Source: Nitrosomonadales bacterium (GTDB taxonomy: Bacteria; Pseudomonadota; Gammaproteobacteria; Burkholderiales; Gallionellaceae). From it: a stretch of DNA of 44,816 nucleotides. A program made the translations under genes and the position numbers. The stretch lies in NCBI GenBank assembly GCA_016195965.1, contig JACPYR010000013.1, forward strand, positions 1 through 44,816, given 5' to 3'. The notes below the pieces were generated by a model. That model did not search any database and was not told the origin of the DNA. It worked only from the letters and a program-made list of their open reading frames with translations. Below, piece after piece: positions 1,129-36,018 of the stretch (its first letter is position 1; the number at the start of each line of letters is the position of its first letter).

Positions 1129-1138
1129 TGGAAGCGCG

Positions 1139-2808: not shown

Positions 2809-2850
2809 TACGGTAAATACTGCCACCGGGCAGCCCCGGCCCTTAAACCT

Positions 2851-7052: not shown

Positions 7053-9179
7053 ATGTCCATCGATATGAGCCAGTTTTACCAGGTGTTCTTCGAGGAGTCA
7101 GCCGAACACCTTGCGAACATGGAAGGCCTGCTGCTCGCGCTCGATCTGGATGCCCCCGATCCCGATCAGCTCAATGCGATTTTCCGCGCCGCCCATTCCA
7201 TCAAGGGGGGCAGCGGCACGTTCGGTTTTACCGATATGACCGGCGTGACCCATGTGCTGGAAACCCTGCTGGACCGTATCCGCAAAAATGAAATCGCCAT
7301 CACCGCCGACATGGTCGATGCGTTTTTGCAGGCGGGCGATGTGCTGCGCGGCCTGCTGGAGGCGCACCAGAACGGAACCATCGCCGATGAAGCCGCGTCG
7401 CGGGATATCTGCGCAAGGCTGGAGGCCTTGACCCGCAACCCGACCGGCGCCAAAAATCCGACCGGCGCCAGCAATCCGGCCGGCAGCGAACAGGCTGTGG
7501 CCGCGCCAGCCAGCCCAATCGCATCGTCTCCTTCTGCGCAACATATATACAAGATTACATTTGCCAACTCTCCCCAAATATTTCCCGGCGAAAACCAGTT
7601 GCAGAATTTGCTGGAAGATCTGGGCAATATCGGAAAGATAGAAAATCAGCAGATCGCGGCAGATGCGGTGACCTTGTCGCTGACCACGCACGCGTCCGAG
7701 GCGGAGTTGCAGGACATCTTCTCGTTCTTCATGGAGTCCGGGCAATTCACCCTTGCATCTCAGGGTGACGCCGGGCAAGCCGCTGCATCGGAAGATGCGG
7801 GCTATGGTTTTTTTGTCGAACCCGAACAGATCAAGGCAGCAGCCGAAGACGCGCAGGGTTTTGGTTTCTTCGTGGAGCCGGAAACGATCAAGTCCGACAC
7901 CGAAAATGCCCAAGGCTACGGCTTCTTCGAAGACGTAAAGCCGCCGCCATCTCCGGCTCCTACAGCTCAAGTCGAAGAAGCGCCGCAGCGCCGCGCAACC
8001 GACAAGGCTCCTGCTGCGGCTGAAACTTCGATCCGCGTGGGCGTGGAAAAGGTCGATCAGATGATCAACCTGGTCGGCGAACTGGTGATCACCCAGTCCA
8101 TGCTGGCCGAAGTGGCCTCCAAGATGGATCCGGTGGTGCATGAGCGGCTGGTCAAGGGTTTGGTCCAGCTCGAACGCAACACCCGTGAATTACAAGAATC
8201 GGTGATGTCGGTGCGCATGATGCCGATCAATTTCGTGTTCAGCCGTTTCCCGCGCGTGGTGCGCGACCTGGCCGTCAAGCTGAATAAAAAAGTGCAACTC
8301 AAGATGGTGGGCGAGGGCACCGAGCTGGACAAGGGGCTGATAGAAAAAATCAGCGACCCGCTGACCCACCTGGTGCGCAACAGCCTCGATCATGGCATCG
8401 AAATGCCGGATGAGCGCATCGCCAAAGGCAAGGACCCGCAAGGCACCATCACGCTTCGCGCCGCGCATCAAGGCGGCAATATCGTCATTGAAGTGGTCGA
8501 TGACGGCGCCGGGCTGAATCGCGACAGGATACTCGCCAAGGCCAGGGAGAAAGGCATAGCCTTCAACGACAGCATCAGCGATGCCGATGTCTGGCTGATG
8601 ATATTCGCGCCCGGTTTTTCGACCGCCGCCGTGGTCACGGATGTATCCGGGCGCGGGGTGGGCATGGACGTCGTGAAGCGCAACATCGAAGGAATCGGCG
8701 GGCGTGTCGAGATTGCCTCCAGGGAGGGAAAAGGCTGCACCATCACCATACGCTTGCCGTTGACGATGGCGATACTGGACGGCTTGTCCATCGCGGTAGG
8801 CGACCAGCTATACATAGTCCCGCTCAGTTTCATTATCGAATCGCTGCAACCCAAGGCCGAAGACATCAAGGAAATCAGCGGGCAGGGTCAGGTATTGCAT
8901 GTGCGCGGCGAGTATCTGCCGCTGATCGCGCTGCACGAAGTGTTCAGCATCCCGCCCAGGGTCAGCAAACCCGAGGACGGCATATTGGTGGTGCTGGAAG
9001 CGGAAGGAAAAAAGGTCGCGTTGTTCGTGGACAACCTGGTAGGCCAGCATCAGGTGGTGATCAAGAGCCTGGAAACCAATTACCGCAAAGTGCCCGGCGT
9101 GTCGGGTGCGACGATCATGGGCGACGGGCGGGTGGCGATGATCATGGACGTGGGGGCGCTGGTCAAGCTCTTGCATTAA
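7053..9179 (+). CDS. cheA: CheA chemotaxis histidine kinase
   Basis: This is a 708-residue kinase. P1/Hpt carries phospho-acceptor His48 (AAHSIKGG). A P2-like domain starts near 163 (HIYKITFANS). The dimerization domain P3 begins near 325 (VEKVDQMINLVGELVI). P4 ATPase has its N-box near 437 (LTHLVRNSLDHG), VVDDGAGL and GRGVGMDVV. A CheW-like P5 fills 570-708. The linker between P2 and P3 has three repeats of a G(Y/F)GFF motif, at about residues 250, 269 and 287, each in a short unit with EPE.IK. An NPTGA repeat lies between P1 and P2. CheA couples receptors to CheY and both CheBs, and is the only CheA in the window. Confidence 0.97.
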   Translation: MSIDMSQFYQVFFEESAEHLANMEGLLLALDLDAPDPDQLNAIFRAAHSIKGGSGTFGFTDMTGVTHVLETLLDRIRKNEIAITADMVDAFLQAGDVLRGLLEAHQNGTIADEAASRDICARLEALTRNPTGAKNPTGASNPAGSEQAVAAPASPIASSPSAQHIYKITFANSPQIFPGENQLQNLLEDLGNIGKIENQQIAADAVTLSLTTHASEAELQDIFSFFMESGQFTLASQGDAGQAAASEDAGYGFFVEPEQIKAAAEDAQGFGFFVEPETIKSDTENAQGYGFFEDVKPPPSPAPTAQVEEAPQRRATDKAPAAAETSIRVGVEKVDQMINLVGELVITQSMLAEVASKMDPVVHERLVKGLVQLERNTRELQESVMSVRMMPINFVFSRFPRVVRDLAVKLNKKVQLKMVGEGTELDKGLIEKISDPLTHLVRNSLDHGIEMPDERIAKGKDPQGTITLRAAHQGGNIVIEVVDDGAGLNRDRILAKAREKGIAFNDSISDADVWLMIFAPGFSTAAVVTDVSGRGVGMDVVKRNIEGIGGRVEIASREGKGCTITIRLPLTMAILDGLSIAVGDQLYIVPLSFIIESLQPKAEDIKEISGQGQVLHVRGEYLPLIALHEVFSIPPRVSKPEDGILVVLEAEGKKVALFVDNLVGQHQVVIKSLETNYRKVPGVSGATIMGDGRVAMIMDVGALVKLLH

Positions 9180-9370: not shown

Positions 9371-9853
9371 ATGCAAGCAAGCGAAGGCAAGGCGGAAGGC
9401 GATAGCCGGGAACTGTTAACTTTTACATTGGGCAGTGAAGAATATGGCATCGACATCCTCAAGGTGCAGGAAATCCGCGGCTACGACGCGGTGACCAAGA
9501 TCGCGAACTCGCCGGAATTCATCAAGGGCGTGATCAACCTGCGCGGCATCATCGTGCCCATCATCGACATGCGCATCAAATTCAAGCTGGGCAACGTGAC
9601 CTACAACGAGATGACCGTGGTGATCATCCTGAATATCGCCAAGCGCGTGGTCGGCATCGTCGTCGATGGCGTATCGGACGTGATCGCGTTGAGTGCAGAG
9701 CAGATCAAGGCCGCGCCGGAATTCAGCGGGGCGATGGACACGCAATACATCAAGGGGCTGGGGACGGTCGATGAGCGCATGATCATCATTGTCGATATAG
9801 AAAAACTGATGACCAGCCGCGACATGGAGCTGGTCGAATCGGCTGTGTCTTAA
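9371..9853 (+). CDS. cheW: CheW receptor-kinase coupling protein
   Basis: This 160-residue CheW-domain scaffold bridges receptor tips to CheA P5. Typical segments are visible: [21 protein letters not shown] near the N-terminus, [19 protein letters not shown] and [11 protein letters not shown]. The ATG follows a near-perfect Shine-Dalgarno (TAAGGAGG, five bases away), suggesting high expression. mcp3 starts 13 bases downstream. It is the only cheW here, so both receptor sets presumably share one array. Confidence 0.97.
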
Positions 9854-9866: not shown

Positions 9867-12107
9867 ATGAATAATCTGACCATCAAAACCCGGCTGATCG
9901 CCGTCATCTGTTTCCTGTCCGCGCTGCTGGTTGGCATAGGCTCATACGGCCTGTGGGGCCTGTCGCGCAGCAATGAAGGGCTGCGCTCGGTGTATGAAGA
10001 CCGCACCGTCGCCTTGGGGCAGCTTGACATAATAGTGCGCAGGCTGCTGAACAACCGCCTGGCGATCGCCAATTCCCTGCTGGACCAGGACAATCCCGAC
10101 AAGGTCAAGCAGTTCACCGATGAAATCGATAGCAACATCGAGATCATCGGCAAAAACTGGGAAGCCTATATGGCCACTTATTTGACGCCGGAGGAGAAGA
10201 AGCTGGCGGACAAGTTTGCGGAGGATCGCAAGAAATTCGTCGGCGAAGGTTTACGCCCAGCCCAGGCGGCGTTGCGCAAAAACGACTTCAAGCTGGCCAA
10301 CGAGATCAGGACAACCAAGATCATCCCGCTCTATCCCGCAGTCCGCGAAAGCCTTGATGCGCTGATCAAGCTGCAGCTGGAAGTAGCCAAGAGCGAATAC
10401 GAGCAATCCGTGTCGCGCTACAACACCTCGCGCATCGTCGCCATCAGCCTGATCCTGTTGGGCATCGCGCTGGCCGCGCTGATGGGCTTCATGCTGGTGC
10501 GCGGCATCGGCCGCGGCCTGCAGTCCGCGATAGGCGTGGCGGAAAAAATCGCCAGGGGAGACCTGTCCAGCCAGATCAGCATCGCCAGCCATGACGAGAT
10601 CGGCAAATTGCTGGTAGCCATGCAAACCATGCAACACAGCCTGAACGGCTTTGTCGCGGCGCAGGGCGTGATGGCCAAGAAACACGCGGAAGGCTGGATC
10701 AGCGATAGGATGGACGCGAGCAAGTTTCCCGGCAGCTACGGCAAGATGGCCGATGAGCTGAACGAACTGGTCGCCTCGCACATCGCGGTGAAGATGAAGG
10801 TGGTCGAGGTCATCACCCAGTACGCCAAGGGCGACTTCAGCCGCGACATGGACAGGCTGCCCGGCGAGAAGGCCAAGATCACCGCCGCAATGGATGCGGT
10901 GAAGACCGCGTTGCTGGGCATCAGCAACGAGATCAAAGTGCTCGCCGAAGCGGGTGCAAAGGGCGACTTCAGCAAACGCGGCGATGCGGACAAATACGAA
11001 TTCATGTTCCGCGAAATGCTGCGCGACATGAACACCCTGATAGAAACCTGCGATGTCGGCTTCCACGACGTGGTGCGCGTGGCCGAGGCGCTGGCCAAGG
11101 CCGATCTGACCCAGACGATCGCGAAGGATTATCCGGGACTGTTCGGCCAGACCAAGGATGCGGTCAACACCACCGTGACCAATTTGCGTGAACTGGTCAA
11201 CCAGATCAAGGACGCGACCGACACCATCAACACCGCCTCCAAGGAAATCGCCGCAGGCAACAGCGACCTGTCGCAGCGCACCGAAGAGCAGGCGTCCAGC
11301 CTGGAAGAAACCGCCAGCAGCATGGAAGAGCTGACCTCGACCGTGAAGCAGAACGCCGAGAACGCCAAGCAGGCCAACCAACTGGCGAAAGGCGCGTCCG
11401 ATGTGGCGGGCAAAGGAGGAGCGGTAGTCGGCCAGGTGGTGACCACGATGGACCAGATCAACGAATCCTCGCGCAAGATTGTGGACATCATTTCTGTTAT
11501 CGACGGCATCGCGTTCCAGACCAACATCCTGGCACTGAACGCGGCGGTGGAAGCCGCGCGCGCGGGTGAGCAGGGGCGCGGCTTCGCGGTGGTGGCGGGC
11601 GAGGTGAGGAATCTCGCGCAGCGCTCTGCTGCGGCGGCCAAGGAGATCAAGACGCTGATAGGCGATTCGGTGGAGAAGGTAGAGGGTGGTTCCAAGCTGG
11701 TCGCACAGGCCGGACAGACGATGGAAGAGATCGTGTCCAGCATCCGTCGGGTGACCGACATCATGAGCGAGATCACGGCGGCATCGAGCGAGCAGAGCCA
11801 GGGCATAGAGCAGGTCAACACCGCGATCACGCAGATGGACGAAGTGACCCAGCAGAACGCGGCGCTGGTCGAGGAGGCTGCGGCGGCTGCCGAATCGCTG
11901 CAGGAGCAGGCGCAGAACCTGACGGTATCGGTGGCGACCTTCAAGATGGACGGGGGCGGCAGCCGCGCCGTTGCGATGAAGCCTGCCAAGACAGCACCCG
12001 TGGCGAAAGCGCCCGCCCGCAAAGCGCCGGTTGCCCAGCCTGTTGGCAAGCCTGCCGGCAAGGCATCCGCCAAACCAACTGACGATGGCGAATGGCAGGA
12101 GTTCTAA
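9867..12107 (+). CDS. Transmembrane chemoreceptor with poly-HAMP linker and CheR-tether tail (mcp3)
   Basis: This 746-residue receptor has TM1 at about 10-32, a four-helix-bundle sensor (35-185) and TM2 at about 191-213. HAMP is followed by a long helical stretch to about 440 with repeated HAMP-like units (note the recurring AKGDFS). The signalling hairpin tip is near 549 ([21 protein letters not shown]). A proline/alanine/lysine-rich flexible tail ends in EWQEF, which fits the xWxxF pentapeptide that tethers CheR (and CheB) to high-abundance receptors. It is the only one of the four receptors with this tail. Bases 11201-11948 are nearly identical to part of mcp4. Confidence 0.95.
11201..11948 (+). 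repeat. 748-bp direct repeat (copy in mcp3)
   Basis: This segment encodes the receptor signalling hairpin and aligns base for base, at a constant offset of 2909 and without indels, with 14110-14857 in mcp4. Differences are scattered and mostly silent. The similarity ends exactly at the end of the hairpin-coding part, where mcp3 continues into its tether tail and mcp4 stops. Confidence 0.9.
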
Positions 12108-12175: not shown

Positions 12176-14860
12176 ATGAGAAATAATCAGCCAATCACCG
12201 ATGTGGAATACGTGCTCAAGGAAACCGATTCCATCGTTTCCAAGACCGACTCCAAGGGGATCATCACCTATATCAACGAAGATTTTTTACGGATCAGCGG
12301 CTTTGCCGAGTCCGAATTGATCGGCACATCGCACAACATCGTGCGCCATCCCGATATGCCGCCCGAGGCGTTTGCCGACCTGTGGCAATCGCTCAAGGCC
12401 AACCGGCCTTGGACAGGCCTGGTCAAAACCCGCTGCAAGAACGGCGATTTCTACTGGGTAGAGGCGAATGTCACGCCTATCTACGAAAACGGGCAGCACG
12501 TCGGCTATATGTCGGTGCGCAGCAAGCCTGCACGGGCACAGATCGACGCCGCATCGGCGGCTTACGCGCTGTTCCGCAACGGTCAGGCCGGCGGCCTGCG
12601 TATCCGGGATGGGCGGGTCGTCAAGTCCAGCCTGCTGGGCAAATTAAACCCGATGAAAAATACCACGATCAAGCTGCGCATGACGGCTGCCTTGCTTGCG
12701 ATGTCTTTGCTGATGCTGATTATCGGCGGGCTGGGTTTGTCCGGCATGGGCAAGAGCTATGATAGCCTGGGCAGCGTTTATGAAGACGGCATCGTTTCGA
12801 TGGAGCACATTACCAGGATACAGAAATTGATGCTGATCAACCGGCTGCGTATCGCCGTCAGCCTGGTAACGCCCACAGCGGAAGTGATACGAAAAAATAC
12901 CGAGGAGGTCGAGCAGAACATCGAAGAGATCGGGAAAATCTGGAAAACATATACCGCCAATCCTTATCTGACGCCCGAAGACAAGGCCCTGGCCGACAAG
13001 TTTGGCGAAGACCGCAAGCGTTTTGTGGTGGAAGGCCTGAAGCCTGCGATTGCGGCGCTGCGGGCTAATGACATTGTGCTGGCCAATCGCATCGTCGTCG
13101 AAAACGTACGCCCCTTATACGAACCGGCTGCCGCAGATGCAGAAAAAATATTGGCGATGCAGATCGACGGCGCCAAAAACGCCTATAACAATGCCGGGGA
13201 ACGCTACGGCTATACGCGCACCATATTCATTGCGCTGCTGACCATCGGGGTCTTGATGGCGTTGTGGGCGGTATTGATGCTGTGGCGTGGCGTGTTGCAT
13301 CCGATAGATACCGTGGTAGGGCTGTTGCGCCAGGTGGCGCAGGGGAATTACACCAGCTCCTTCTCTACAATACGCAACGATGAAATAGGCAAGCTGCTCG
13401 ATGCGATCAAATCCATGCAGATCAAACTGGGATTCGATGTGGCCGACGCGCTGCGCGTATCCAACGAAAACCTGCGCATCAAAATCGGCCTGGACAATGT
13501 TTCGACCAGCGTGATGATTTCCGACCCGGAGCGCAAGATCATCTACATGAACAAGGCCGTGCATGAATTGATGGCTGTCGCCGAAGCCGATATCCGCAAG
13601 GCCTTGCCCGATTTCAGTGCCGCCAAACTGATGGGCGGCAGCATCGATGCCTTCCACAGGAACCCGGCGCATCAGAAGGCGATGCTGGAGAGCCTGAGCA
13701 CGACCCATTGCACCCAGATCGAGTTAGGCGGGCGCACCTTTGCGCTGGCGGCAAGCCCTGTGATCAACGAACGCGGCACCCGCCTTGGGGCCGCGCTGGA
13801 ATGGAAAGACCGCACCGCAGAAGTGGCGGTGGAGAAAGAAGTGGCGGCGATCGTCGATGCAGCGGTGCTGGGGGATTTCACCAAACGCATCGAGATGCAG
13901 GGCAAGGAAGGATTTTTCCGGCAATTGGGCGAAAGCCTGAACCAGTTGCTGCAAACCTCATCCGACGGCTTGGGAGAAGTTGCACACATGCTGGATGCGC
14001 TGGCGCAAGGCAATCTGACCGAGCGTATCACTACCGACTATATGGGCACATTCGGCAAGTTGAAAGACGACGCCAATGCGACTGCCGATAAATTGACCGA
14101 AATCATAGGCCAGATCAAGGACGCCACCGACACCATCAACACCGCGTCCAAGGAAATCGCCGCAGGCAACAGCGACCTGTCGCAGCGCACCGAAGAGCAG
14201 GCGTCCAGCCTGGAAGAAACCGCCAGCAGCATGGAAGAGCTGACCTCGACGGTGAAGCAGAACGCCGAGAACGCCAAGCAGGCCAACCAACTGGCGAAAG
14301 GTGCGTCCGATGTGGCTGGCAAAGGAGGTGCGGTAGTCGGCCAGGTGGTGACCACGATGGACCAGATCAACGAATCCTCGCGCAAGATCGTGGACATCAT
14401 TTCTGTTATCGACGGCATCGCGTTTCAGACCAACATCCTGGCATTGAACGCGGCGGTGGAAGCGGCCCGTGCGGGTGAGCAGGGCAGGGGCTTCGCGGTG
14501 GTGGCGGGCGAGGTGAGGAACCTGGCGCAAAGGAGTGCTGCTGCGGCCAAGGAGATCAAGACGCTGATAGGCGACTCGGTGGAGAAGGTGGAGGGAGGTT
14601 CCAAGCTGGTGGCACAGGCAGGACAGACGATGGAAGAGATCGTGTCCAGCATCCGCCGGGTGACCGACATCATGAGCGAGATCACGGCGGCATCGAGCGA
14701 GCAGAGCCAGGGCATAGAACAGGTCAACACCGCGATCACGCAGATGGACGAAGTGACCCAGCAGAACGCGGCGCTGGTCGAAGAGGCTGCGGCTGCTGCC
14801 GAATCGTTGCAGGAGCAGGCGCAGAACCTGACGGAGTCGGTGGCGACCTTCAAGATGTAG
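12176..14860 (+). CDS. Chemoreceptor with N-terminal Aer-type PAS, 4HB sensor, HAMP and second PAS (mcp4)
   Basis: This 894-residue receptor begins with a cytoplasmic PAS domain (about 5-125) very like that of the aerotaxis receptor Aer. It keeps [10 protein letters not shown] and [11 protein letters not shown], the motifs of the FAD-binding class. At residue 160 a sequence resembling a complete receptor start ([10 protein letters not shown]) begins, giving TM1 about 168-188, a four-helix bundle, TM2 about 348-370, HAMP, a second PAS (435-550) and the signalling hairpin (642-894). The protein thus looks like an Aer-PAS fused to a full receptor. FAD binding and redox/energy taxis are predicted, not shown. 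The C-terminus (TFKM) has no CheR tether. Its hairpin DNA is a near-copy of that of mcp3. Confidence 0.94.
14110..14857 (+). repeat. 748-bp direct repeat (copy in mcp4)
   Basis: This is the partner of 11201-11948: same reading frame, no insertions or deletions, and a few mainly third-position differences. The preceding 3 kb of the two receptor genes are clearly more diverged. This favours a recent duplication or ongoing gene conversion limited to the signalling domain. Confidence 0.9.
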
Positions 14861-14893
14861 GTGGGGATTTATAGAGGTCGAAGGGTGCTGTGG

Positions 14894-14917
14894 TTCGACA
14901 GGCTCACCACGAACGGG
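14894..14917. repeat. Dispersed repeat with TTCGACAGGCTCACC motif
   Basis: A short copy of the same repeat family as 9211-9236, in the opposite orientation. Its last base touches the predicted -35 region of the cheR2 promoter. Confidence 0.5.
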
Positions 14918-14943
14918 AAACTTTTTAATGGTCGAGTCGATAA
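14917..14943 (+). promoter_or_regulatory. Candidate sigma-28 (FliA) promoter for the cheR2 operon
   Basis: GAAACTTT (14917-14924), an 11-base spacer and GTCGATAA (14936-14943) match the sigma-28 consensus TAAAGTTT-N11-GCCGATAA at 6 of 8 and 7 of 8 positions with exact spacing. It lies about 75 bases upstream of cheR2 and would place cheR2-cheD2-cheB2, and probably the STAS and PP2C genes, in the late flagellar regulon. Confidence 0.6.
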
Positions 14944-15016
14944 TCCGACAGGGGCAGGGCGCAAAGAATGCAACCATAGCCCGCCAGAGGCAGGACACTA
15001 ATTTCAGAGAGACGAT

Positions 15017-15910
15017 ATGGTAGACCATCTGCAGACTGGTGACAGGGAACGCGAATTCGCTTTTACCGGCAAGGATTTCGAGCGGGTGCGCCAGTTGATT
15101 TATGCCCATGCCGGGATATCGCTGAATGCGTCCAAACAGGACATGGTGTACAGCCGTCTGGCCAGGCGACTGCGCGCAACCGGGATAGACAATTTCAGCG
15201 ATTATTTGGCGTTGCTGGAAAACAACGACGAGGCGGAATGGGAGGCGTTCGTCAATTCGCTGACCACCAACCTGACCGCGTTCTTCCGCGAGCCGCACCA
15301 TTTCCCCTTGCTGGCCGAACATCTGCTCAAACAAAAAGGCAAGCATCCTCTTGCACTGTGGTGTTCGGCATCCTCGACCGGCGAGGAGCCGTATTCGATG
15401 GCGATGACCATAGTTGAGGCATTCGGCAGTTTCAAACCCCCGGTCACGATAGTGGCGACAGACCTGGATACCAATGTGCTGGCCAAGGCGGCAGCGGGCA
15501 TCTACCCGCTCGATCGTGTCGAGAAATTGTCCGGCGCAGTACTGAAACGTTTTTTCCTGAAGGGAGCGGGGGCGCAGCAGGGCTATGTGCGGGTGCGTCC
15601 GGAGTTGCGGGAAATGATCACGTTCCGGCAGGTCAACCTGCTCGGCGACGAATGGCCAATACGCGGGCCGCTAGATGCGATCTTCTGCCGCAACGTGATG
15701 ATCTACTTCGACAAGGAGACGCAACTCAAGATATTGGGGCGTTTCGCGCCCTTGTTGCAACCGGATGGCCTGTTGTTCGCGGGACATTCGGAGAGTTTCC
15801 ATAATGCCGGGCACCTGTTCAGTTTGCGCGGCAAGACTGTATATGAGCTAGCCAAAAAAAACCAGGCACACCACACGGGAACCGCAACGGCAAAGAACAG
15901 GGAAAGCTGA
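15017..15910 (+). CDS. cheR: CheR chemoreceptor methyltransferase (second copy)
   Basis: This is a 297-residue paralog of the CheR at 262. The N-terminal helical domain covers about 17-95, and the SAM-binding region contains WCSASSTGEEPYS. The motif IFCRNVMIYFD lies near residue 230 and GHSESF near the end. The start ATG follows AGAGAGACGAT. It heads cheR2-cheD2-cheB2; cheD2 begins 6 bases after its stop. A sigma-28-like promoter lies upstream. The presence of two CheRs suggests different receptor preferences, but the sequence does not show which. Confidence 0.96.
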   Translation: MVDHLQTGDREREFAFTGKDFERVRQLIYAHAGISLNASKQDMVYSRLARRLRATGIDNFSDYLALLENNDEAEWEAFVNSLTTNLTAFFREPHHFPLLAEHLLKQKGKHPLALWCSASSTGEEPYSMAMTIVEAFGSFKPPVTIVATDLDTNVLAKAAAGIYPLDRVEKLSGAVLKRFFLKGAGAQQGYVRVRPELREMITFRQVNLLGDEWPIRGPLDAIFCRNVMIYFDKETQLKILGRFAPLLQPDGLLFAGHSESFHNAGHLFSLRGKTVYELAKKNQAHHTGTATAKNRES

Positions 15911-15916
15911 ATCATC

Positions 15917-16531
15917 TTGGCCGACCATTTATTCGAAGAGCTGCAGGCGCCCAACCTTTATTTCGACAGGGGGCACGAAATCGAGGCAGCCAAGATATTG
16001 CCCGGCGAGTATTACGCGACCGCGCGCGACATGATGCTGGTAACGGTGCTAGGCTCCTGCGTTTGCGCCTGCATACGCGACAGAGAACTTGGCATCGGCG
16101 GGATGAACCATTTCATGTTGCCGGATGGCGGCATGGATCAGGGAGATATCCTGGGCGAATCTGCCCGCTATGGCACTTATGCAATGGAGATATTGATCAA
16201 CCAGTTGCTCAAGATGGGGGCCAAGCGCGGCAATCTGGAGGCCAAGGTGTTTGGCGGCGCCGCCGTGTTGCGCGGATTCATGGTCGCGAATGTCGGGGAG
16301 CGCAACGCGCAGTTCGTGCTGAAGTTTCTGAAGACGGAAAATATCCCGGTCGCCGCGCAAGACCTGCGCGATATCCACCCGCGCAAGGTGTATTTCTTCC
16401 CCAAAACCGGGCGGGTCAGGGTCAAAAAACTCAGGCAGGTGCATAACGATACGGTCATCAACCGCGAGTCCGAATACAAGGCGCGTCTGCGCTATGCCAA
16501 GGTCGAGGGCGAGTTGGAATTGTTCGATTGA
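15917..16531 (+). CDS. cheD: CheD receptor deamidase (second copy)
   Basis: This is a 204-residue CheD starting at TTG 15917; no ATG occurs before the conserved core, and coupling to cheR2 (6 bases upstream) may compensate for a weak ribosome site. Catalytic Cys48 (VLGSCVCAC) and His65 (GGMNHFMLP) are present. The core continues through KVFGGAAVL, VGERN and PRKVYFFPKTGRVRVKKL. It lacks the cysteine-rich insertion of CheD1. The C-terminus GELELFD resembles the tails of mcp2 and CheD3. CheD can also act as a receptor-binding adaptor in systems with CheC, but no CheC is seen here. Confidence 0.94.
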   Translation: MADHLFEELQAPNLYFDRGHEIEAAKILPGEYYATARDMMLVTVLGSCVCACIRDRELGIGGMNHFMLPDGGMDQGDILGESARYGTYAMEILINQLLKMGAKRGNLEAKVFGGAAVLRGFMVANVGERNAQFVLKFLKTENIPVAAQDLRDIHPRKVYFFPKTGRVRVKKLRQVHNDTVINRESEYKARLRYAKVEGELELFD

Positions 16532-16577
16532 CCGCGGTATGTCATGATGCGGCACCGCATACCGAGAAGGCGCAACG

Positions 16578-17675
16578 ATGGAAAATCGCAGAATTAAGGT
16601 GCTGGTGATCGACGATTCCGCGCTGATACGCAGCGTGATGAAAGAAATCATCGACCGCGAAAAAGATATGGAGTGCGTCGGCGCTGCGCCCGATCCGCTG
16701 GTGGCGCGCGAGATGATCAAATCGCTCAATCCGGATGTGCTGACACTGGATGTGGAAATGCCCAAGATGGACGGGCTGGATTTTCTGGAGCGCCTGATGA
16801 GGCTGCGCCCGATGCCGGTGGTGATGGTTTCCACGCTGACCGAGCGCGGCTCCGACATCACTTTCCGTGCGCTGGAGCTGGGCGCGGTGGACTTCGTCTC
16901 CAAGCCGAAAATGGATATCGCCCACGGCATGGAAGAATATGCGCTGGAGATTACCGACAAGATCAGGGCTGCCGCCCAGGCGCACGTGCACACGAAAAAG
17001 ACGGTTGCGCCCATGGTGATACAGGAGCGGCTTTCCGCCGATGTGATCCTGCCCAGCAATGTTCCGGGACGATTCTCTTCGACCGAGAAATTGATCATCA
17101 TCGGCGCCTCGACCGGAGGCACAGAGGCGATCAAGGAGGTATTGGTGCGGCTACCCGCAGATGTTCCGGGGATATTGGTGACCCAGCACATGCCGGAAAA
17201 TTTCACCAAGTCTTTCGCGGAGCGCCTGAATAGCCTGTGCAAGATTTCTGTGAAGGAAGCGGAAAATAACGAGCGTATCCTGCCGGGCCACGCTTATATT
17301 GCCCCCGGACATTCCCATTTGCTGCTCAAGCGCAGCGGCGCCAACTACATGACAGAGTTGAGCCAGGGGCCGCCGGTAAACCGCCATCGCCCGTCGGTGG
17401 ACGTGCTGTTCCGCTCTGCGGCCAATTATGCCGGGGCCAATGCGTTGGGCATCATACTCACCGGCATGGGCAAGGACGGCGCGCAGGGTTTGCTTGAGAT
17501 GAAGAATGCCGGCTGCCATACTATCGCCCAGGATGAGGCGACCTGCGTGGTATTCGGCATGCCCAAGGAGGCCATAGCAATGGGCGGCGCATGTGAAGTA
17601 TTGCCGTTGCAGAATATCGCGCAGCGCACCATGACTTATCTTGCCCAGCACAGCGGCAAGGGCAATCGAGTTTGA
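16578..17675 (+). CDS. cheB: CheB receptor methylesterase/deamidase (second copy)
   Basis: This 365-residue protein has a receiver domain with phospho-acceptor Asp58 (LTLDVEMP), a linker, and an esterase domain with catalytic Ser178 (GASTGG), His204 (TQHMPENF) and Asp300 (GMGKDGAQG). All residues needed for activity are present. The order cheR2-cheD2-cheB2 repeats that of cheR1-cheD1-cheB1, pointing to an ancient duplicated adaptation cassette. The STAS gene starts 23 bases downstream. Confidence 0.96.
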
Positions 17676-17698
17676 TATACGCTTAACCGGGAGATAAC

Positions 17699-18010
17699 AT
17701 GGTTTTTAAAGTAACGACGCTGGATAAAGTGGCCCGCATCGAGATGGCCGGTCGATTTGATTTTCAAATACACCGGGAATTCAAGGGCGCATATGACAAA
17801 TTTCTGGATGAAACCGGCATAGTCGAGGTCGAGATCGAGTTGAGCCAGGTCAGTTATCTGGACAGCTCCGCCCTGGGAATGTTGATGTTGCTCAATAAAC
17901 GCGCACATGAAAAAAACAAGACCGTGACCTTGCTCAATCCCTCCCCCGGAGTGGCTCAAGTGCTTGAGGTTGCGAATTTCAACAAGCTGTTCAATATAAA
18001 ACAGGCCTGA
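17699..18010 (+). CDS. STAS-domain anti-anti-sigma-type protein (HsbA-like)
   Basis: This is a 103-residue single STAS domain. The conserved loop YLDSSALGML places the predicted phosphorylatable serine at Ser56/Ser57, as in SpoIIAA and RsbV. In partner-switching systems the unphosphorylated STAS protein binds an anti-sigma factor or another partner; a kinase and a PP2C phosphatase set its state. Both enzymes are fused in the next gene (18069). No sigma or anti-sigma gene is present in the window, so the output may be a remote partner such as FlgM or a diguanylate cyclase, as known for Pseudomonas HsbA. That parallel is inference from domain content and chemotaxis context. Confidence 0.88.
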   Translation: MVFKVTTLDKVARIEMAGRFDFQIHREFKGAYDKFLDETGIVEVEIELSQVSYLDSSALGMLMLLNKRAHEKNKTVTLLNPSPGVAQVLEVANFNKLFNIKQA

Positions 18011-18068
18011 TATTTTCAAAACAAATATTAATCCGTTACCCTGATAAGCCCCATTGCACGGGATACAC

Positions 18069-19841
18069 ATGCGCACCAACCTGCCAGTCAGCAACGTAGA
18101 ACAGCTCATTCCCGAAGACGAGGTGCTGATTTCCAAAACGGACCTGAGAGGGCAAATCACATACTGCAATCAGCCTTTCTGCAGGATATCCGGATATGAT
18201 TTATACGAATTGAGGGGGGCGCCGCACAATCTGATCCGCCACCCCGATGTACCTGCGGAATTGTTTGCCTGCATGTGGCAACAAATAAAATCCGGCAAGC
18301 CTTGGCGCGGGATACTCAAAAACCGCTGCAAGAACGGCGATCACTACTGGGTTGAAGCAAACGTGAGCCCGATACTTCAGGACGGCGAGATCACCGGTTA
18401 TTTATCGCTGCGTTACAAGGTTTCGCCGGAACAGATTGCCATCGCCGAGCGAGCCTATCAAACCAAACAGTTTGAATTGATGTATTCGGACAAGTCCGAC
18501 CAGAATTACATCATCGAATTGCAACTGCGATTGGCCCAGAAAATCGCCTCCATGGAATCTCTCCATGAGCAAAGCACCAGCGATCTGGCGGTGGCCGGTA
18601 ACATCATATCGCGCATTTCAAATGCATTCGGCTCGTCCGACCCGCTGGTCAGGACGCGTATCGTTCCGGCGGAGCAATGCAGCGGAGACCTCATCCTGAT
18701 GTGTCGAACCCCGGTGGATATATTGCATATCATGCTGGCAGACGCCGTTGGGCATGGTTTGGTCGCAGCCATCAATTTACTGCCGCTTAGCCAGATTTTC
18801 TTTTCGATGTCGAAGAAAGCGCTTTCGATCCGGGACATCGCAGTGGAACTGAACTCGAAGATACACCAGCTGATGCCGCCGGAGTGCTTTATTTCCGCCG
18901 TTATGGTTTCAATCGATTTTCGCAAGCGGTGCATCGAGGTTTGGAATGGGGGGATCCCAGCCCCGTTGCTGTTCAGTCTGGATGGCAGGATGCTGCACAA
19001 GTGGTCGGCGCGTAATCTGCCACTGGGGATACTCGATAATGCATCCTTCTCACCCGCAACGGAGGTTTTGTATTACGACGAAGATTGCCAGTTGTTTATG
19101 TTTTCCGATGGCTTGTCCGAAGCGGTATCGCCACAGGGTGAGCAGCTAGGGAATGGGCGTATAGAGGAAATGCTGGCCGGTACGCAGCCGGACTCCCGTT
19201 TTGAGGGCATATTCGGCATGCTGGAAAATCACCTATCCGGAACCCCGGCACATGACGATATTTCTGTAGCCGTGACTACGCTCTATGCCGCAGAAATAAA
19301 TGAACAACCTGCGTCCCGTTCCGGCTCATATCAGGGATATGAGTCAAACAGAGATTGGCGTATCGAGATCGCGCTGGGCGCGGAGGAACTGAAATATCTG
19401 GATGTCATTGCGCTGCTTTCCCAGATGCTCAACGAAATTCATTTTGCGGACGAGCACCGTTCCTCTTTATTCGTCATATTGAGCGAACTGCTGAATAATG
19501 CGCTGGATCACGGCATTCTCGATTTGGACTCCACCGTCAAGCAGGGGCCGGATGGATTTGAAACATATATGAATCTGCGCGACGAGAAATTGCGTTTTCT
19601 GAAACAGGGGTATATCGGAGTTGGGCTGGAAAAAATGATAATAGATGGAAAGAATGGCATAAAAATTCGTGTGGTCGATAGCGGCAAAGGTTTCAATTTG
19701 TCGTCAATCCGTCCGGATACGCTCAATCGGAATACACAGCAGCAGTTTGGAAGAGGCATCGCGCTGGTGCAAAAATTGGCCTATAAGGTGGAATATTCTC
19801 CGCAAGGCAACTCGGTTGTCGCTTATTATGTTTTTGCCTAG
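18069..19841 (+). CDS. Aer-type PAS / SpoIIE-like PP2C phosphatase / RsbW-like HATPase fusion
   Basis: This 590-residue protein starts at ATG 18069, preferred over the TTG at 18054. Domains: an Aer-like PAS (about 8-125; HNLIRHPDVP, KNGDHYWVEAN), a helical linker, a SpoIIE/RsbU phosphatase (about 195-405) and an RsbW-like kinase domain (about 430-590). The PP2C metal-binding acidic residues are visible in SGDL, LADAVGHG, FSDGLSEA and HDDIS. The kinase domain has ELLNNALDHG, VVDSGKGF and GRGIALV. It probably phosphorylates and dephosphorylates the adjacent STAS protein in response to redox or oxygen sensed by the PAS. Pseudomonas HsbR has the same PP2C-HATPase pair but a receiver domain in place of the PAS. 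No transmembrane segment is seen. Confidence 0.9.
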   Translation: MRTNLPVSNVEQLIPEDEVLISKTDLRGQITYCNQPFCRISGYDLYELRGAPHNLIRHPDVPAELFACMWQQIKSGKPWRGILKNRCKNGDHYWVEANVSPILQDGEITGYLSLRYKVSPEQIAIAERAYQTKQFELMYSDKSDQNYIIELQLRLAQKIASMESLHEQSTSDLAVAGNIISRISNAFGSSDPLVRTRIVPAEQCSGDLILMCRTPVDILHIMLADAVGHGLVAAINLLPLSQIFFSMSKKALSIRDIAVELNSKIHQLMPPECFISAVMVSIDFRKRCIEVWNGGIPAPLLFSLDGRMLHKWSARNLPLGILDNASFSPATEVLYYDEDCQLFMFSDGLSEAVSPQGEQLGNGRIEEMLAGTQPDSRFEGIFGMLENHLSGTPAHDDISVAVTTLYAAEINEQPASRSGSYQGYESNRDWRIEIALGAEELKYLDVIALLSQMLNEIHFADEHRSSLFVILSELLNNALDHGILDLDSTVKQGPDGFETYMNLRDEKLRFLKQGYIGVGLEKMIIDGKNGIKIRVVDSGKGFNLSSIRPDTLNRNTQQQFGRGIALVQKLAYKVEYSPQGNSVVAYYVFA

Positions 19842-20040
19842 GCCATGATTTTCATTGCGACCAGATAGGCAGAGAAAATAAGCGTGGCCCCGGAATCGGC
19901 GCTGGGAATCGATTGCGTAATCGGCTCTGCTGTTATGATGCGGGTGGCATGGCTGCCCGATTATCCTGGACGAATTTCTCGACGACAGCCTGCTGTTCGA
20001 TAGCGGCAAACAGCTCTATCCATATCTCTCTTAGGCGAAT

Positions 20041-20898
20041 ATGAACAAGGCCATTACTGAATTGGTGCAGGGTGTAGACAATCTGATCACGTTGCCGGAT
20101 GTGTTCGTGCGCATCAATAGATTGGTGGAAGATGCCAATAGCAACATGGCTGACATCGCCAAAGTCGCCGGGCAGGATCCTTCTTTTTCCATGCGCTTGT
20201 TGCGCGTCGCCAACAGTACTTTCTACGGGTTCCCGTCTACAATAGACACTATCCCCAAGGCGGTCTCCATCATCGGCACCAGCCAGATACGCAGCCTGGC
20301 GCTAGCCACTTCGGTGGCAAGTTCATTCGAAGGGCTGCCCAATTCGCTGGTGTCGATGGGGAATTTCTGGAGGCATAGCCTGTACTGCGCCATCGCGGCG
20401 CGCATCCTGTGCAAGCAGGCGCACAAGTGCGATCCCGATGCGGTGTTTACTGCGGCTTTGTTGCACGACATCGGCGAGCTGGTGATTTTTAACCGTATGC
20501 CGCAACAAGCCAAAGAGGTCTTGTATCTGGTTTTGGACAGCGCAGATGAATTGCCCGTTTATCTTGCAGAACGCCAAATCATGGGTTTCGACCACGCTCA
20601 GGTGGGCGGGGAACTTGCCCGCCAATGGCAGTTGCCACCCATGCTGGTGGAATGTATCGAGTGCCATCATGACATCCGCTCCGCACAACATTTCCCTCGC
20701 GAAACCGCGTTGGTGCATATCGCCAACAGCCTGGCACTGATGGCGGAAACACAGACTCTAGATCAGAAAGATGTTTCGCCTATCGATCAGTTAGCCTGGC
20801 AAATCGTCGGCCTGGATGCCGGTCAGGTCATTCCTGCAGTAGTAGGCGAGGCCCAGGAAATGATCGCCGAAGCCGAAAAACTTTTCATCGGCAAATAG
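20041..20898 (+). CDS. HDOD-domain signalling protein
   Basis: This 285-residue protein consists mainly of an HDOD domain (about 12-215), a relative of HD phosphohydrolases found in signal transduction proteins. It shows FSMRLLRVANSTFYG and SIIGTSQIRSLAL, and the HD-like LLHDIGELVIFNRM. Enzymatic activity of HDOD domains is generally not established. The start ATG follows TTAGGCGA. cheD3 begins 5 bases after its stop, so the two are almost certainly co-transcribed. The 199 bp upstream (19842-20040) hold no convincing gene. Confidence 0.9.
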   Translation: MNKAITELVQGVDNLITLPDVFVRINRLVEDANSNMADIAKVAGQDPSFSMRLLRVANSTFYGFPSTIDTIPKAVSIIGTSQIRSLALATSVASSFEGLPNSLVSMGNFWRHSLYCAIAARILCKQAHKCDPDAVFTAALLHDIGELVIFNRMPQQAKEVLYLVLDSADELPVYLAERQIMGFDHAQVGGELARQWQLPPMLVECIECHHDIRSAQHFPRETALVHIANSLALMAETQTLDQKDVSPIDQLAWQIVGLDAGQVIPAVVGEAQEMIAEAEKLFIGK

Positions 20899-20903
20899 CG
20901 AAC

Positions 20904-21533
20904 ATGCCCACCCCTCCCAATAAGCCTTTGCCCTTGCCTGGATTTGAACATATCAAGCGCGCCTGGAACGAGGTTTACGCAGCTTATGCGGCCCGCTTGA
21001 ATCCCGGCGAATACTATGTGACCAGGAACGACGAGTGCATCTACACCACCTTGGGTTCCTGCATTTCAGCCTGTATCCGCGATAGGGTGAGCGGTGTCGG
21101 CGGCATGAATCATTTCATGTTGCCTGCCGTACCGGGCGACGCAGGACTGAAGAGTGAGGATGTCAGTTACGCAACCCGTTATGGCAACTTTGCTATGGAG
21201 CACATGATCAACGAAATCTTGAAAAACGGTGGCTATCGCAAGAACCTGGAGGTCAAGCTGTTTGGCGGGGGGCGCATTATTGCCGGCATGACCGATGTGG
21301 GCAAACGCAACATAGAGTTTGTAAGAAAATACATCGCGATAGAAGGATTGCAAGTTACTTCTGAAGATGTCGGCGACACGGTCCCGCGCATGGTGGTGTA
21401 TTTCCCTAGCACCGGGAAAGTGCGCGTCAAACGGCTGCGTTCTCTGCATAACAATATCGTTGTGGATATGGAGAGCAGCTATCAGCGCCAGATAGTCGAA
21501 AAACCAGAGAGCGGCGAGGTCGAGTTGTTCTGA
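20904..21533 (+). CDS. cheD: CheD receptor deamidase (third copy)
   Basis: This 209-residue CheD has catalytic Cys53 (TLGSCISAC) and His70 (GGMNHFMLP), followed by KLFGGGRII, VGKRN and PRMVVYFPSTGKVRVKRL. It is closer to CheD2 than to CheD1 and lacks the four-cysteine insertion. The tail GEVELF resembles those of mcp2 (GDVELF) and CheD2. Its ribosome site is weak and translation is likely coupled to the HDOD gene. A REP/MITE-like element begins on the next base after the TGA stop. A third CheD with no accompanying cheR or cheB is unusual. Confidence 0.94.
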   Translation: MPTPPNKPLPLPGFEHIKRAWNEVYAAYAARLNPGEYYVTRNDECIYTTLGSCISACIRDRVSGVGGMNHFMLPAVPGDAGLKSEDVSYATRYGNFAMEHMINEILKNGGYRKNLEVKLFGGGRIIAGMTDVGKRNIEFVRKYIAIEGLQVTSEDVGDTVPRMVVYFPSTGKVRVKRLRSLHNNIVVDMESSYQRQIVEKPESGEVELF

Positions 21534-21737
21534 ACTTCTCCAGTGGGAGCGGCTTTAGCCGCGATTGGTCGCTCGAGTTTACTGCCCGCATCGCCGCTCA
21601 AAGCCGCTCCCACAAAGGACTTGCTCGATAACTCCATTAGGGTTAATCAACAGTGCAACGCTACACCAGCCATTCCACTTGGCCGCCAAAATACGGCAGC
21701 CAAGTGGCTGGTTATGTGGCTTGAATTGCGGTTTTTA
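21534..21737 (-). repeat. REP/MITE-like element, copy 2 (long form, inverted)
   Basis: This is the reverse-complement orientation of the element at 2851-3084. It has the 23-base palindrome arm at 21543-21565 and a partly decayed second arm at 21590-21613. The CAGTGCAACGCTACAC end segment and the additional hairpin module extend to about 21737. The outer end beyond the palindrome is missing where the cheD3 stop codon lies. It occupies the convergent gap between cheD3 and glgP1. Confidence 0.85.
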
Positions 21738-21768
21738 GCATCAAAGCACTTGTTGGGCAGTTCAGGGG

Positions 21769-24240
21769 TTAATCGAGCACCGGTTTTGCTCCCCATATTT
21801 TTGCCGCATAGTCGCTTATGGTGCGGTCGCTGGAAAATTTTCCCATGCCGGCCACGTTGAAAATCGCGCGGCGCGTCCATTGCTCCCGGTCGCGGTAAAG
21901 CGCATCCACACGTTCCTGCGCGGCGACGTAAGCGGCATAATCGGCCAGCAGTAAGTATTGGTCACCACCTTGGGTAAGGTTGCGGACGATAGATTGGAAT
22001 CGATCGGCCCGGTCGGGCGAGAAGTAACCCGAACCTATCATGTCCAGAGCCCATTTCAACTCGTTGTTGGTCTGATAGTAACTCCAGGCGTTGTAGCCGG
22101 AACTTTTCAGCTCGGCGACTTCTCGGGTGTTGAGCCCGAAGATGAAGATGTTGTCTTCACCGACTTCCTGCATGATTTCGATATTGGCACCATCCAGCGT
22201 CCCTATGGTCAGTGCGCCATTCAGCGCAAGTTTCATGTTGCCGGTGCCTGACGCTTCGGTGCCGGCGGTGGAGATTTGCTGAGACAGGTCGGCGGCAGGA
22301 ACGATCTCGCTGGCGGTCGTCACATCGTAATTGGGGATAAAGACCAGTTTGAGCAGGCCGCGCACGGCTGGATCATTGTTGACGATGTCGGCGATGCTGT
22401 TGGCGAGTTTGATGATCAGCTTGGCGGTGGCATAACCAGGCGCCGCTTTGCCGGCGATGATCACGGTGCGCGGCACGACATCCAGTTCCGGGTTGGAGCG
22501 GATACGGTTATAAAGCGTGATCACGTGCAGCAGGTTGAGCAGCTGGCGCTTGTATTCGTGGATGCGTTTGACCTGCACGTCGAACAGGCTGTCCGGATCA
22601 ATCACAATACCCAGCTTGTTCATGACCAGTGCGGCCAGGCGCTCCTTGTTGGCGCGTTTTACCGCGCGGAATTCCGCCTGGAATTTCTTGTCGTCCGATA
22701 GTTTTTTGAGATGCTTCAGTTGCGACAAATCGGTGATCCAATCCTTGCCGATGCGACTGGTTATCAGCTGGGTCAGTCCAGGGTTGGCCTGGTTGAGCCA
22801 CAAGCGCGGCGTGATGCCGTTGGTGATATTGGTCAGCTTGCCCGGATAAACGCGATCAAAGTCGGCAAAGATGGTGGTTTTCATCAGCTCTGAATGGAGC
22901 TGCGCCACGCCGTTGACATGATGGCTGCCCACGATGGCCAGATGCGCCATGCGCACCCGCCGGCCACGGGTTTCTTCGATGATGGACATGCGTTTGAGCA
23001 ATTCCGAATCGCCCGGAAAGTGGTGCATGACATTGGTCAGGAAGCGCTGGTTGATCTCATAGATGATCTGCAAATGGCGCGGCAGAACCGACTCGAACAG
23101 CGACACCAGCCAGGTCTCCAGCGCTTCGGGCATCAGCGTGTGGTTGGTATAGGAAAAGGTACGCGTGGTGATGTCCCAGGCATGATCCCATTTGAGGTGG
23201 TGCAAATCCACCAGCAGGCGCATCAGTTCGGGGATGGCGATCGCGGGGTGGGTGTCGTTAAGCTGGATCGCCACCTTGTTTGGCAGTTCATCGAAGCCGT
23301 GGTGATGTTTCTGGAAGCGGAACAGGATGTCTTGCAGTGAGGCGCTGACAAAGAAATATTGCTGCTTGAGGCGCAGCTCCTTGCCCATGTCGGTGGTGTC
23401 GTCCGGGTAGAGCACCTTGGACAGGTTCTCGGATTGATTCTTGTCTTCGACAGCCCTGATGTAATTGCCTTCGTTGAAATACTTCAGGTCGAAGTCGCGC
23501 GAAGCCTTGGCAGACCACAGTCGCATGTTGTTGACGGTGTCCAGGCCGTAGCCTGGTATAGGCGTGTCATAGGCCATCGCCATCACATCGTCGGTATCCG
23601 TCCAGTGGAAGTGCGAGTTGCCGTGCTCGTCGATAAATTGCGCGACACGACCGTGGAATTTGACCGGGTATAACACTTCAGGGCGGGGGAATTCCCATGG
23701 ATTGCCGTAACGCAGCCAGTTATCCGGATGTTCCACCTGCCAGCCATCCTCGATCTTCTGATGGAACATGCCATATTCGTAGCGTATGCCCATGCCATAG
23801 CCGGGTATGCCCATGGTTGCCATGGAATCCAGGAAGCAGGCCGCCAGCCGTCCCAATCCGCCATTACCCAGCGCGGCATCGAATTCCATGTCTTTCACAA
23901 TGCTCAGATCGATGCCCGCTTCGCTGCATGCCTTGCGCACTTCATCCTCGAAGCCGATGTTCAGCACGCTGTTCATCAGGCTGCGCCCGATCAGAAATTC
24001 CATCGAAAGGTAGTACACACGCTTGGCGTCTTCGACGTAGTAGCGGCGCATCGTGGCCATCCAGCGCTCGATCAACCGTTCACGAACCACATTGGCGATG
24101 GTGAAGAACCAGTCGCGGTCGGTGGCCGTGATCGGGTCTTTACCAACTGAATAAATCAGATGATTGGTCATAGATTGCTGGACCGAATTCAGGCTGGGAT
24201 TGAGCGGTTCGAGCGGTAACTCTTTCGAAGTTTTTGGCAT
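21769..24240 (-). CDS. glgP: Glycogen/maltodextrin phosphorylase (GT35), first copy
   Basis: This 823-residue PLP-dependent phosphorylase releases glucose-1-phosphate from alpha-1,4-glucan ends. The ATG at 24240 (MPKTSKEL) is chosen because a strong Shine-Dalgarno (GAGGAGA) precedes it and the longer frame adds only unconserved residues. Family landmarks: YYLSMEFLIGRSL, DAALGNGGLGRLAACFLDS, QLNDTHPAIAIPELMR, VKRIHEYKRQLLN, and the PLP lysine in EASGTGNMKLALNGALTIG. It is transcribed divergently from gnd across 230 bp with no gene between, so shared regulation is possible. It is one of three GT35 enzymes in this window. Confidence 0.96.
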   Translation of the reverse strand: MPKTSKELPLEPLNPSLNSVQQSMTNHLIYSVGKDPITATDRDWFFTIANVVRERLIERWMATMRRYYVEDAKRVYYLSMEFLIGRSLMNSVLNIGFEDEVRKACSEAGIDLSIVKDMEFDAALGNGGLGRLAACFLDSMATMGIPGYGMGIRYEYGMFHQKIEDGWQVEHPDNWLRYGNPWEFPRPEVLYPVKFHGRVAQFIDEHGNSHFHWTDTDDVMAMAYDTPIPGYGLDTVNNMRLWSAKASRDFDLKYFNEGNYIRAVEDKNQSENLSKVLYPDDTTDMGKELRLKQQYFFVSASLQDILFRFQKHHHGFDELPNKVAIQLNDTHPAIAIPELMRLLVDLHHLKWDHAWDITTRTFSYTNHTLMPEALETWLVSLFESVLPRHLQIIYEINQRFLTNVMHHFPGDSELLKRMSIIEETRGRRVRMAHLAIVGSHHVNGVAQLHSELMKTTIFADFDRVYPGKLTNITNGITPRLWLNQANPGLTQLITSRIGKDWITDLSQLKHLKKLSDDKKFQAEFRAVKRANKERLAALVMNKLGIVIDPDSLFDVQVKRIHEYKRQLLNLLHVITLYNRIRSNPELDVVPRTVIIAGKAAPGYATAKLIIKLANSIADIVNNDPAVRGLLKLVFIPNYDVTTASEIVPAADLSQQISTAGTEASGTGNMKLALNGALTIGTLDGANIEIMQEVGEDNIFIFGLNTREVAELKSSGYNAWSYYQTNNELKWALDMIGSGYFSPDRADRFQSIVRNLTQGGDQYLLLADYAAYVAAQERVDALYRDREQWTRRAIFNVAGMGKFSSDRTISDYAAKIWGAKPVLD

Positions 24241-24470
24241 ATCACGAATCTCCTCTGTGAAAGGGAAGTATAAACAGGATTCCGCTATACGTCTTGTCAA
24301 TTGCAGCGAGCCGGGAGCAAGTGGGGAGATCATCCATATCTGCCCTTTATACGGATGAATTACGGCATATAATCCGTTCGGAATTTTGCAAAACTATAAC
24401 TCTGGTTCAAAGCCTCCAGTCCAGTTGGACTGCAATATTTTTTCTGGCATTATTTTTTGGGGAGACGTTT

Positions 24471-31324: not shown

Positions 31325-31371
31325 TCACAGCGCTTGCATTTGCTAATTTCCTGTCGAAAAGTGAGACTGCA

Positions 31372-32826: not shown

Positions 32827-32846
32827 ACGGTTTTTTGGAACCATCC

Positions 32847-33374: not shown

Positions 33375-33503
33375 ATTAAGCGGGGAGTCAAACCGGATTT
33401 CATATGCCCGAATACATTACAATCTGAAACTCATACGTATTTGAGTTACATTGCAACGCAGTTCTAATCGAAAATCAATTTTTAATCAAAAATATCAAAA
33501 CTC

Positions 33504-36011: not shown

Positions 36012-36018
36012 CCCTTTG

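Follow-up and report, generated by a model that had tools for sequence, protein, structure and literature searches.

The 44,816-nucleotide stretch of DNA that we analysed (hereafter the window; contig JACPYR010000013.1, handle G000:C38) belongs to the genome of a Nitrosomonadales bacterium, Gallionella-like to judge by how its nearest relatives are named (2.73 Mb, 95 contigs, 82.9% complete), and carries, within a chemotaxis (che) operon, a gene for a STAS protein followed by a gene for a PAS-PP2C-HATPase fusion, here called the switch protein. This pair is probably a partner switch of the CrsR/HsbR kind in which an Aer-type PAS domain, predicted to bind flavin adenine dinucleotide (FAD), replaces the receiver domain, so that flavin redox would likely set the phosphorylation of a serine of the STAS protein. 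The original prediction, made from the sequence letters, had described a STAS protein with a DSS loop followed by such a fusion in a che operon, and the open reading frames (ORFs) and Pfam recovered all of its coordinates, domains and motifs. The antagonist/phosphatase slot at the end of che clusters is already known, among others from ancestral F7 chemosensory clusters; what is new is the predicted redox-type head in the receiver's place, mostly in Gallionella-type records. In the open-licence literature searched we found no account of a partner switch that has a PAS head and belongs to a che operon, which is not proof of absence. The features of the pair are as follows.

17699..18010, + strand: STAS protein of the anti-sigma-antagonist type, 103 amino acids (Pfam STAS_2/STAS)
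17864-17866, + strand: Ser56, predicted phospho-acceptor of the STAS protein (DSS loop, residues 55-57)
18069..19841, + strand: switch protein, PAS-helical linker-SpoIIE/PP2C-HATPase_c_2, 590 amino acids (Pfam, AlphaFold2 model, Foldseek)
18102..18464, + strand: Aer-type PAS head, residues 12-132 (H53, R57, W70, N85, R115, G28; Foldseek to 8dik)
18501..18629, + strand: long helix from PAS to PP2C, residues 145-187, predicted signalling linker (DSSP of the model; predicted local distance difference test, pLDDT, about 60-87)
18648..19283, + strand: PP2C/SpoIIE phosphatase domain, residues 194-405 (Pfam, motifs, model)
19356..19838, + strand: HATPase_c_2 (RsbW-type) kinase/anti-sigma domain (Pfam, motifs)

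All Pfam matches to the two proteins exceeded the gathering scores (STAS_2, E 1.9e-16, and STAS, E 1.8e-13, in the STAS protein; PAS_3, 3.3e-15, SpoIIE, 6.1e-28, and HATPase_c_2, 4.6e-12, in the fusion), and the STAS protein narrowly passed the NCBIfam anti-sigma antagonist model TIGR00377 (53.9 versus 53.45). The DSS motif was present in 83 of the 85 STAS ORFs from related loci. In the switch protein we recognised the phosphatase motifs SGD (from residue 205), ADAVGHG (224), FSDG (345) and HDD (395) and the kinase motifs NNALDHG (476), DSGKGF (537) and GRGIAL (561). Thus, the proposed HsbR/HsbA-like anatomy, with PP2C and HATPase in one chain next to a DSS-bearing STAS protein, was borne out. 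The Pfam scan gave no Response_reg match in the switch protein, and the Aer-type PAS stands in the receiver's place. The start codon ATG at 18069 was preferred over TTG at 18054 because homologues start at that methionine. The AlphaFold2 model of the full switch protein, built from an alignment of 43 sequences, had a mean pLDDT of 80.8 and a predicted template modelling score (pTM) of 0.47.

The solved PAS domain nearest to the head was that of E. coli Aer (8dik; 151 bits), with which the residue numbering agrees. In the model, the PAS overlaid 8dik in Foldseek with a TM-score of 0.95 (by target length) and a root mean square deviation of 0.9, and the FAD-binding PAS domains of Aer, NifL and MmoS were among the nearest structures. 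In Aer, FAD is contacted by H53, N85, R115, R57 and W70 (with M69), and G28 is a stabilising glycine; the potential of Aer is given as -290 mV (PMC9668731). All of the Aer positions named there (H53, R57, M69, W70, N85, R115, G28) are present in the window PAS. Among the matches listed, each of the 43 short PAS forms and 56 of the 60 long ones retained the five contacts H53, R57, W70, N85 and R115 together. The five were complete in 13 of 19 chemoreceptor PAS domains near the module and in two of the four other Aer-type PAS domains of the same genome that could be aligned (six were tried), one of the four being the PAS of the window chemoreceptor. Redox input is thus well supported by sequence, with the PAS predicted to bind FAD. 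Since the anatomy, the STAS linkage and the five contacts are all kept, a flavin-type input in place of the phosphorelay, as originally suggested, remains the best reading.

Of the 7997 candidates scored in a protein search, 1781 passed E ≤ 1e-30 as homologues, and the best 120 of the 1781 were described, so that the following covers the nearest relatives. Among these 120, 43 had the window architecture of about 590 amino acids (both copies of this genome counted), 60 had a longer PAS form of about 835 amino acids (PAS, insert, PP2C, HATPase), and in 17 the N-terminal part combined a HAMP region with a c-haem-like CxxCH motif (in all 17). Where source names were given, they were Gallionella, Gallionellales, Ferrigenium, Sideroxyarcus or Nitrosomonadales. 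The insert of the long form has membrane-like segments by sequence reading. The possibility that it is a chemoreceptor periplasmic region (about 245 amino acids) gained little support: BLAST gave nothing convincing, and the profile match was weak, exceeding the inclusion threshold in six of 58 receptor-like ORFs (best 2e-10), one of them a mis-sorted PAS switch protein. Across the 399 genomes of the order, 87 matched at 1e-50; the PAS and the remainder were matched together only in this genome (twice) and in G281 of the same genus, another three matches were confined to the PAS, and none of the remaining matched frames was of long-PAS length. In the genus, 27 of 76 genomes matched the switch. 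By match range and frame length, three of these were of the short PAS type, 14 had frames of 834-879 amino acids (long-PAS size) and one a 700-residue frame; in the other nine the frames were of receiver size (583-632 amino acids) and the match lay outside the PAS.

To describe the operon slot, we sampled 79 named loci (best 80 of 178; L049, which duplicates the record of L062, was set aside), 12 loci from further relatives, the window and a second cluster of the same genome. Their 98 switch ORFs comprised 64 with a receiver, nine with a short PAS, 14 with a long PAS, nine with CxxCH and two with an unrecognised head, as labelled by BLAST and motif rules; Pfam confirmed the receiver in nine of the nine receiver-labelled proteins tried. 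The window head therefore occupies a slot where most sampled relatives carry a receiver, which the original prediction had missed. Of the 79 named loci, 24 had sensor heads; 18 of these 24 are named Gallionella, Gallionellaceae, Gallionellales or Ferrigenium and six more broadly; receiver heads were also found in Gallionellaceae (L099, L123, L126). The most frequent order, cheR-cheD-cheB-STAS-switch, was common to PAS- and receiver-headed forms. A STAS gene lay on the same strand within 5 kb of 62 of the 64 receiver forms, nine of nine short-PAS forms, nine of 14 long-PAS forms, nine of nine CxxCH forms and one of the two unrecognised forms; within 200 bases the counts were 62/64, 4/9, 9/14, 4/9 and 1/2, respectively. 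The linkage of the STAS gene and the short-PAS switch is thus kept in relatives. CheB was found within 6 kb of 48 receiver, eight short-PAS, eight long-PAS, nine CxxCH and one unrecognised form.

In several loci two head types share one STAS gene. The CxxCH-headed and PAS-headed switches lie on either side of the STAS gene in L061 and L062; in L069, L072, L074 and L080 both head types lie 3' of it, after an HDOD gene and a cheD gene, which also adjoin the pair in the window. The following CxxCH sensors have the same PP2C-kinase core and stand by PAS siblings and a single STAS gene.

L061:5351-7483
L062:3336-5630
L069:5722-7947
L072:5848-7995
L074:5576-7951
L080:6014-7954

A fold search with a model of the CxxCH-HAMP form (mean pLDDT 66) mainly hit phosphatases and gave no identity for the sensor.

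The history of the heads was followed in a tree of 61 of 96 switch cores, each trimmed to start shortly ahead of the PP2C domain and run to the C-terminus, without the head; the receiver rows had been thinned from 64 to 37, after which eight long-branched ones were dropped. The sensor-headed cores formed two clades, one of 25 rows and one of 7, each supported at 100/100, with receiver-headed cores between them. The idea that sensor heads joined the core only once was rejected, as the approximately unbiased test excluded the one-clade tree (p 5e-6). The PAS heads of the switches, in contrast, were all separated from those of the chemoreceptors by one branch (99/95). Heads and cores therefore have different histories: either heads were swapped between cores, or cores were converted between neighbouring copies. 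As to direction, the trees are unrooted, and the change would have run from receiver to sensor because receiver forms are more widely spread. Recent capture of the PAS from the neighbouring chemoreceptor (12176-14860) was also rejected, the same branch separating 23 switch from 19 chemoreceptor PAS heads. In the core tree as in the PAS tree, the branch leading to the window copy is long.

The same genome holds a second STAS and PAS-PP2C-HATPase pair (63% and 54% identity) in another che cluster, at locus L011 on contig C17.

L011:7448-7780: STAS gene of the second cluster
L011:5646-7433: PAS-PP2C-HATPase gene of the second cluster

At E ≤ 0.01 the window STAS protein matched only its own gene and the STAS gene of the second cluster in this genome, each of them by a switch gene. 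The duplicate in a second che cluster implies that the window pair is not a chance arrangement. The L011 cluster also encodes a chemoreceptor-like protein, CheY, CheA, CheR and CheD; CheB and CheW were not recognised in this stretch. At its other end lies a receiver-PP2C-receiver-PAS-GGDEF-EAL gene (L011:13573-16905, - strand), a fusion that joins a phosphatase to domains of cyclic di-GMP (c-di-GMP) turnover, all labelled by ORF reading.

In the window, the genes run in the order CheY, CheA, CheW, chemoreceptor, PAS-chemoreceptor, CheR, CheD, CheB, STAS, switch, HDOD, CheD. The STAS gene starts 23 bases past the end of cheB, and the switch gene starts 58 bases past the end of the STAS gene. 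CheY, CheW, CheR and the CheD at 15917 were labelled by ORF reading and similarity across loci, CheA by NF007835, and the others by Pfam.

Starting at 6621: CheY
7053..9179, + strand: CheA (E. coli-type equivalog NF007835, 809.9 bits versus a cut-off of 793)
9371..9853, + strand: CheW (conserved in the loci)
9867..12107, + strand: TarH-HAMP-MCPsignal chemoreceptor, C-terminus EWQEF
12176..14860, + strand: chemoreceptor with its own Aer-type PAS (PAS-TarH-HAMP-MCPsignal)
15017..15910, + strand: CheR of the operon
15917..16531, + strand: CheD of the operon
16578..17675, + strand: CheB, immediately 5' of the STAS gene
20041..20898, + strand: HDOD protein after the pair
20904..21533, + strand: third CheD of the window

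Two features of this operon are traits of F7 chemotaxis systems: CheA exceeds the NF007835 cut-off, and the MCP signalling domain of the receptor at 9867 aligned without gaps to an entry that we take to be Tsr, itself presumably of the 36H type. The HDOD gene is also 3' of the STAS gene, with a cheD gene adjoining it, in L069, L072, L074, L080, L082 and L084. Promoter and terminator scans of positions 14700-21800 gave no excess to speak of over shuffled sequence (six sites versus 5.9, and nine versus 7.5, respectively). The left end of the window (262-2808, ORF reading) holds a second cheR-cheD-cheB set, which brings the cheD genes to three (the left-end set, 15917 and 20904). An interspersed DNA repeat of about 140-210 bases and 90-96% identity occurs at 2849-3056, 21530-21738 and 36018-36161 of the window and at L011:8004-8142, some copies lying inside or bordering the two che clusters and others in different parts of the window. 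Genes for glycogen/glucan phosphorylases and glycogen synthase follow 3' of the che cluster (21769-24333 and 28763-36011, ORF reading).

With a predicted flavin-binding head, the redox state of the cell would likely set the switch directly. The PAS may act through helix 145-187 on the PP2C dimer, and the balance between dephosphorylation of Ser56 by PP2C and its phosphorylation by the HATPase domain would shift with the state of the PAS. Free STAS protein could then bind or release a target, for which FlgM/FliA would be the likeliest candidate in flagellated relatives, by analogy with HsbA. The genus context is consistent with this. A match to FlhA was found in 26 of the 27 module-bearing genomes versus 20 of the 49 without the module, and in 21 of the 27 the module and flhA were no more than 10 kb apart, in one they were 19 kb apart and in four they lay on different contigs. 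Sigma factor matches of FliA size (about 240-277 amino acids) occurred in 26 of the 27, in 23 of these on the flhA contig, and of 60 genomes from the family 46 had FlgM. Flagellar output is thus likely for the relatives. In five 99% complete genomes of the genus (G339, G434, G438, G442, G445) there was no match to FlhA, FlgM or the switch core, flagellar markers and module being lacking together.

Several points weigh against this picture as a whole. FAD binding and phosphotransfer to Ser56 are predictions from sequence and model, and the residue at position 69, M in Aer, is not constant across the family. A STAS gene within 5 kb was absent in five of the 14 long-PAS forms, two of which have 8 kb of upstream sequence. 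The association between FlhA and the module (Fisher p 1.1e-6) ignores the relatedness of the genomes, and the FliA-size sigma factors were assigned by size and position alone. Neither copy of the pair adjoins flagellar genes. Moreover, searches of this 83% complete genome gave no FlhA, no flagellin, no FlgM and no FliA over the cut-off; it is the sole module-bearing genome of the 27 without an FlhA match. Flagellar output is for this reason not demonstrated here, and the original suggestion that the switch could set swimming versus sessile behaviour was not supported for this genome. Of the partners proposed for elsewhere in the genome, flgM gave no match and a GGDEF domain was read in the GGDEF-EAL fusion at the second che cluster. 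The absences of FlgM, FliA and FlhA are partly one event, since in G281 FlgM, a FliA-size sigma factor and FlhA sit together on the module's contig. Both an assembly gap and loss of flagella could account for them.

The missing markers bear on what the switch controls. Its output might, especially in this genome, be c-di-GMP or surface/pilus behaviour and not flagella, which we regard as a possible but rather doubtful alternative. The receiver-PP2C-receiver-PAS-GGDEF-EAL protein beside the che genes of the second cluster would fit it, as does the action of phosphorylated HsbA on a diguanylate cyclase in Pseudomonas (PMC6482189); the presence of FlhA in nearly all module-bearing genomes, its proximity to the module in most of them and the incompleteness of the assembly speak for flagella instead. 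A second alternative concerns the input: the PAS could be free of flavin or hold another ligand and serve mainly in dimerisation or protein binding, so that the partner switch is kept and redox sensing is not. The PAS of B. subtilis RsbP works with the partner protein RsbQ, which has been modelled at the PAS-linker interface (PMC12143880), and four of the 60 long PAS forms among the matches listed lose an FAD contact. Considering that no short form listed does so, and that the nearest structures include the FAD-binding PAS domains named above, this alternative appears unlikely. It is highly improbable that the module is a functionless relic of a flagellated ancestor: the long branches of the window copy and the missing flagellar markers would agree with decay, but both copies are open, with intact catalytic motifs and FAD contacts, and each stands by an open STAS gene in one of two che clusters. 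Control of RpoS availability, as by CrsR-CrsA in the same neighbourhood and with similar anatomy in Shewanella che1 (PMC9855816), is the least probable alternative, weakened by the fact that not one of the 27 genomes of the genus with the module, the present genome among them, has an RpoS match over the curated cut-off. The sigma factor matches in those genomes were sized as RpoD, as a protein of about 290 amino acids or as FliA.

We return to the flavin-headed partner switch as the preferred reading and to what it might mean for its hosts. Microaerophilic iron oxidisers live in opposing gradients of O2 and Fe(II). As a tentative proposal, Gallionella-type iron oxidisers may have rewired a che-operon switch to direct redox sensing, with cytosolic flavin and periplasmic c-haem heads repeatedly swapped, and the two heads that face one STAS protein in several loci may compare inner and outer redox, their balance deciding flagellar gene expression. 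If this is true, the series of sensors at a constant operon slot would reveal the input that the slot requires (redox or energy state), and the microaerophilic iron-oxidiser lifestyle would be tied to a defined redox switch. The exchange of a receiver for flavin-type and c-haem-type heads offers an assayable protein with a single serine as the readout.

Among the known systems, Rv1364c of M. tuberculosis (3ke6) differs in having the STAS domain fused in the chain, and it is not known to have an Aer-type PAS or to lie in a che operon; RsbP, the energy-stress phosphatase of B. subtilis, has no kinase domain in its chain, needs RsbQ and is not known to lie in a chemotaxis operon. The likeness to Rv1364c, the top Foldseek match, lies in PAS, RsbU and RsbW being joined in one chain (PMC12143880), and that to RsbP in the control of a PP2C domain acting on STAS by a PAS and a coiled coil in response to energy state (PMC3183031, PMC12143880). 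In RsbU such a linker controls the PP2C dimer, and PAS, receiver and HAMP heads have been proposed to be exchangeable on it (PMC12143880). E. coli Aer shares the PAS sequence, fold and FAD contacts (PMC9668731). Its output is a chemoreceptor signalling domain, whereas that of the window protein is a PP2C-kinase.

HsbR has a receiver head. The window switch, in contrast, has no receiver, and FlgM, a target of the Pseudomonas system, was not found in this genome. HsbR of P. aeruginosa is a response regulator fed by HptB, and HsbR-HsbA controls FlgM, HsbD and RpoS through Ser56 of HsbA, on which PP2C and kinase act; the window serine is likewise residue 56 (PMC6482189). As a whole, the original prediction was supported as to anatomy, linkage and flavin-type input and unsupported as to control of swimming here, and it had missed a closer comparator, CrsR-CrsA and the F7 clusters (PMC9855816, PMC7184735). 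The che1 (F7) locus of Shewanella oneidensis carries CrsR-CrsA, which controls RpoS (PMC9855816, PMC6482189). CrsR thus differs in its target from the window switch, which has an Aer-type PAS head in a genome where RpoS is not over the cut-off; the two systems share an anti-sigma antagonist and a PP2C/anti-sigma-kinase regulator within a che locus. Stage 1 F7 clusters differ in gene order, as an mcpA-like receptor precedes the pair there, but they too end with an anti-sigma factor antagonist and a serine phosphatase and have 36H-type receptors (PMC7184735), just as the pair in the window ends a cheY-cheA-cheW-receptor-cheR-cheD-cheB cluster with receptors of this type.

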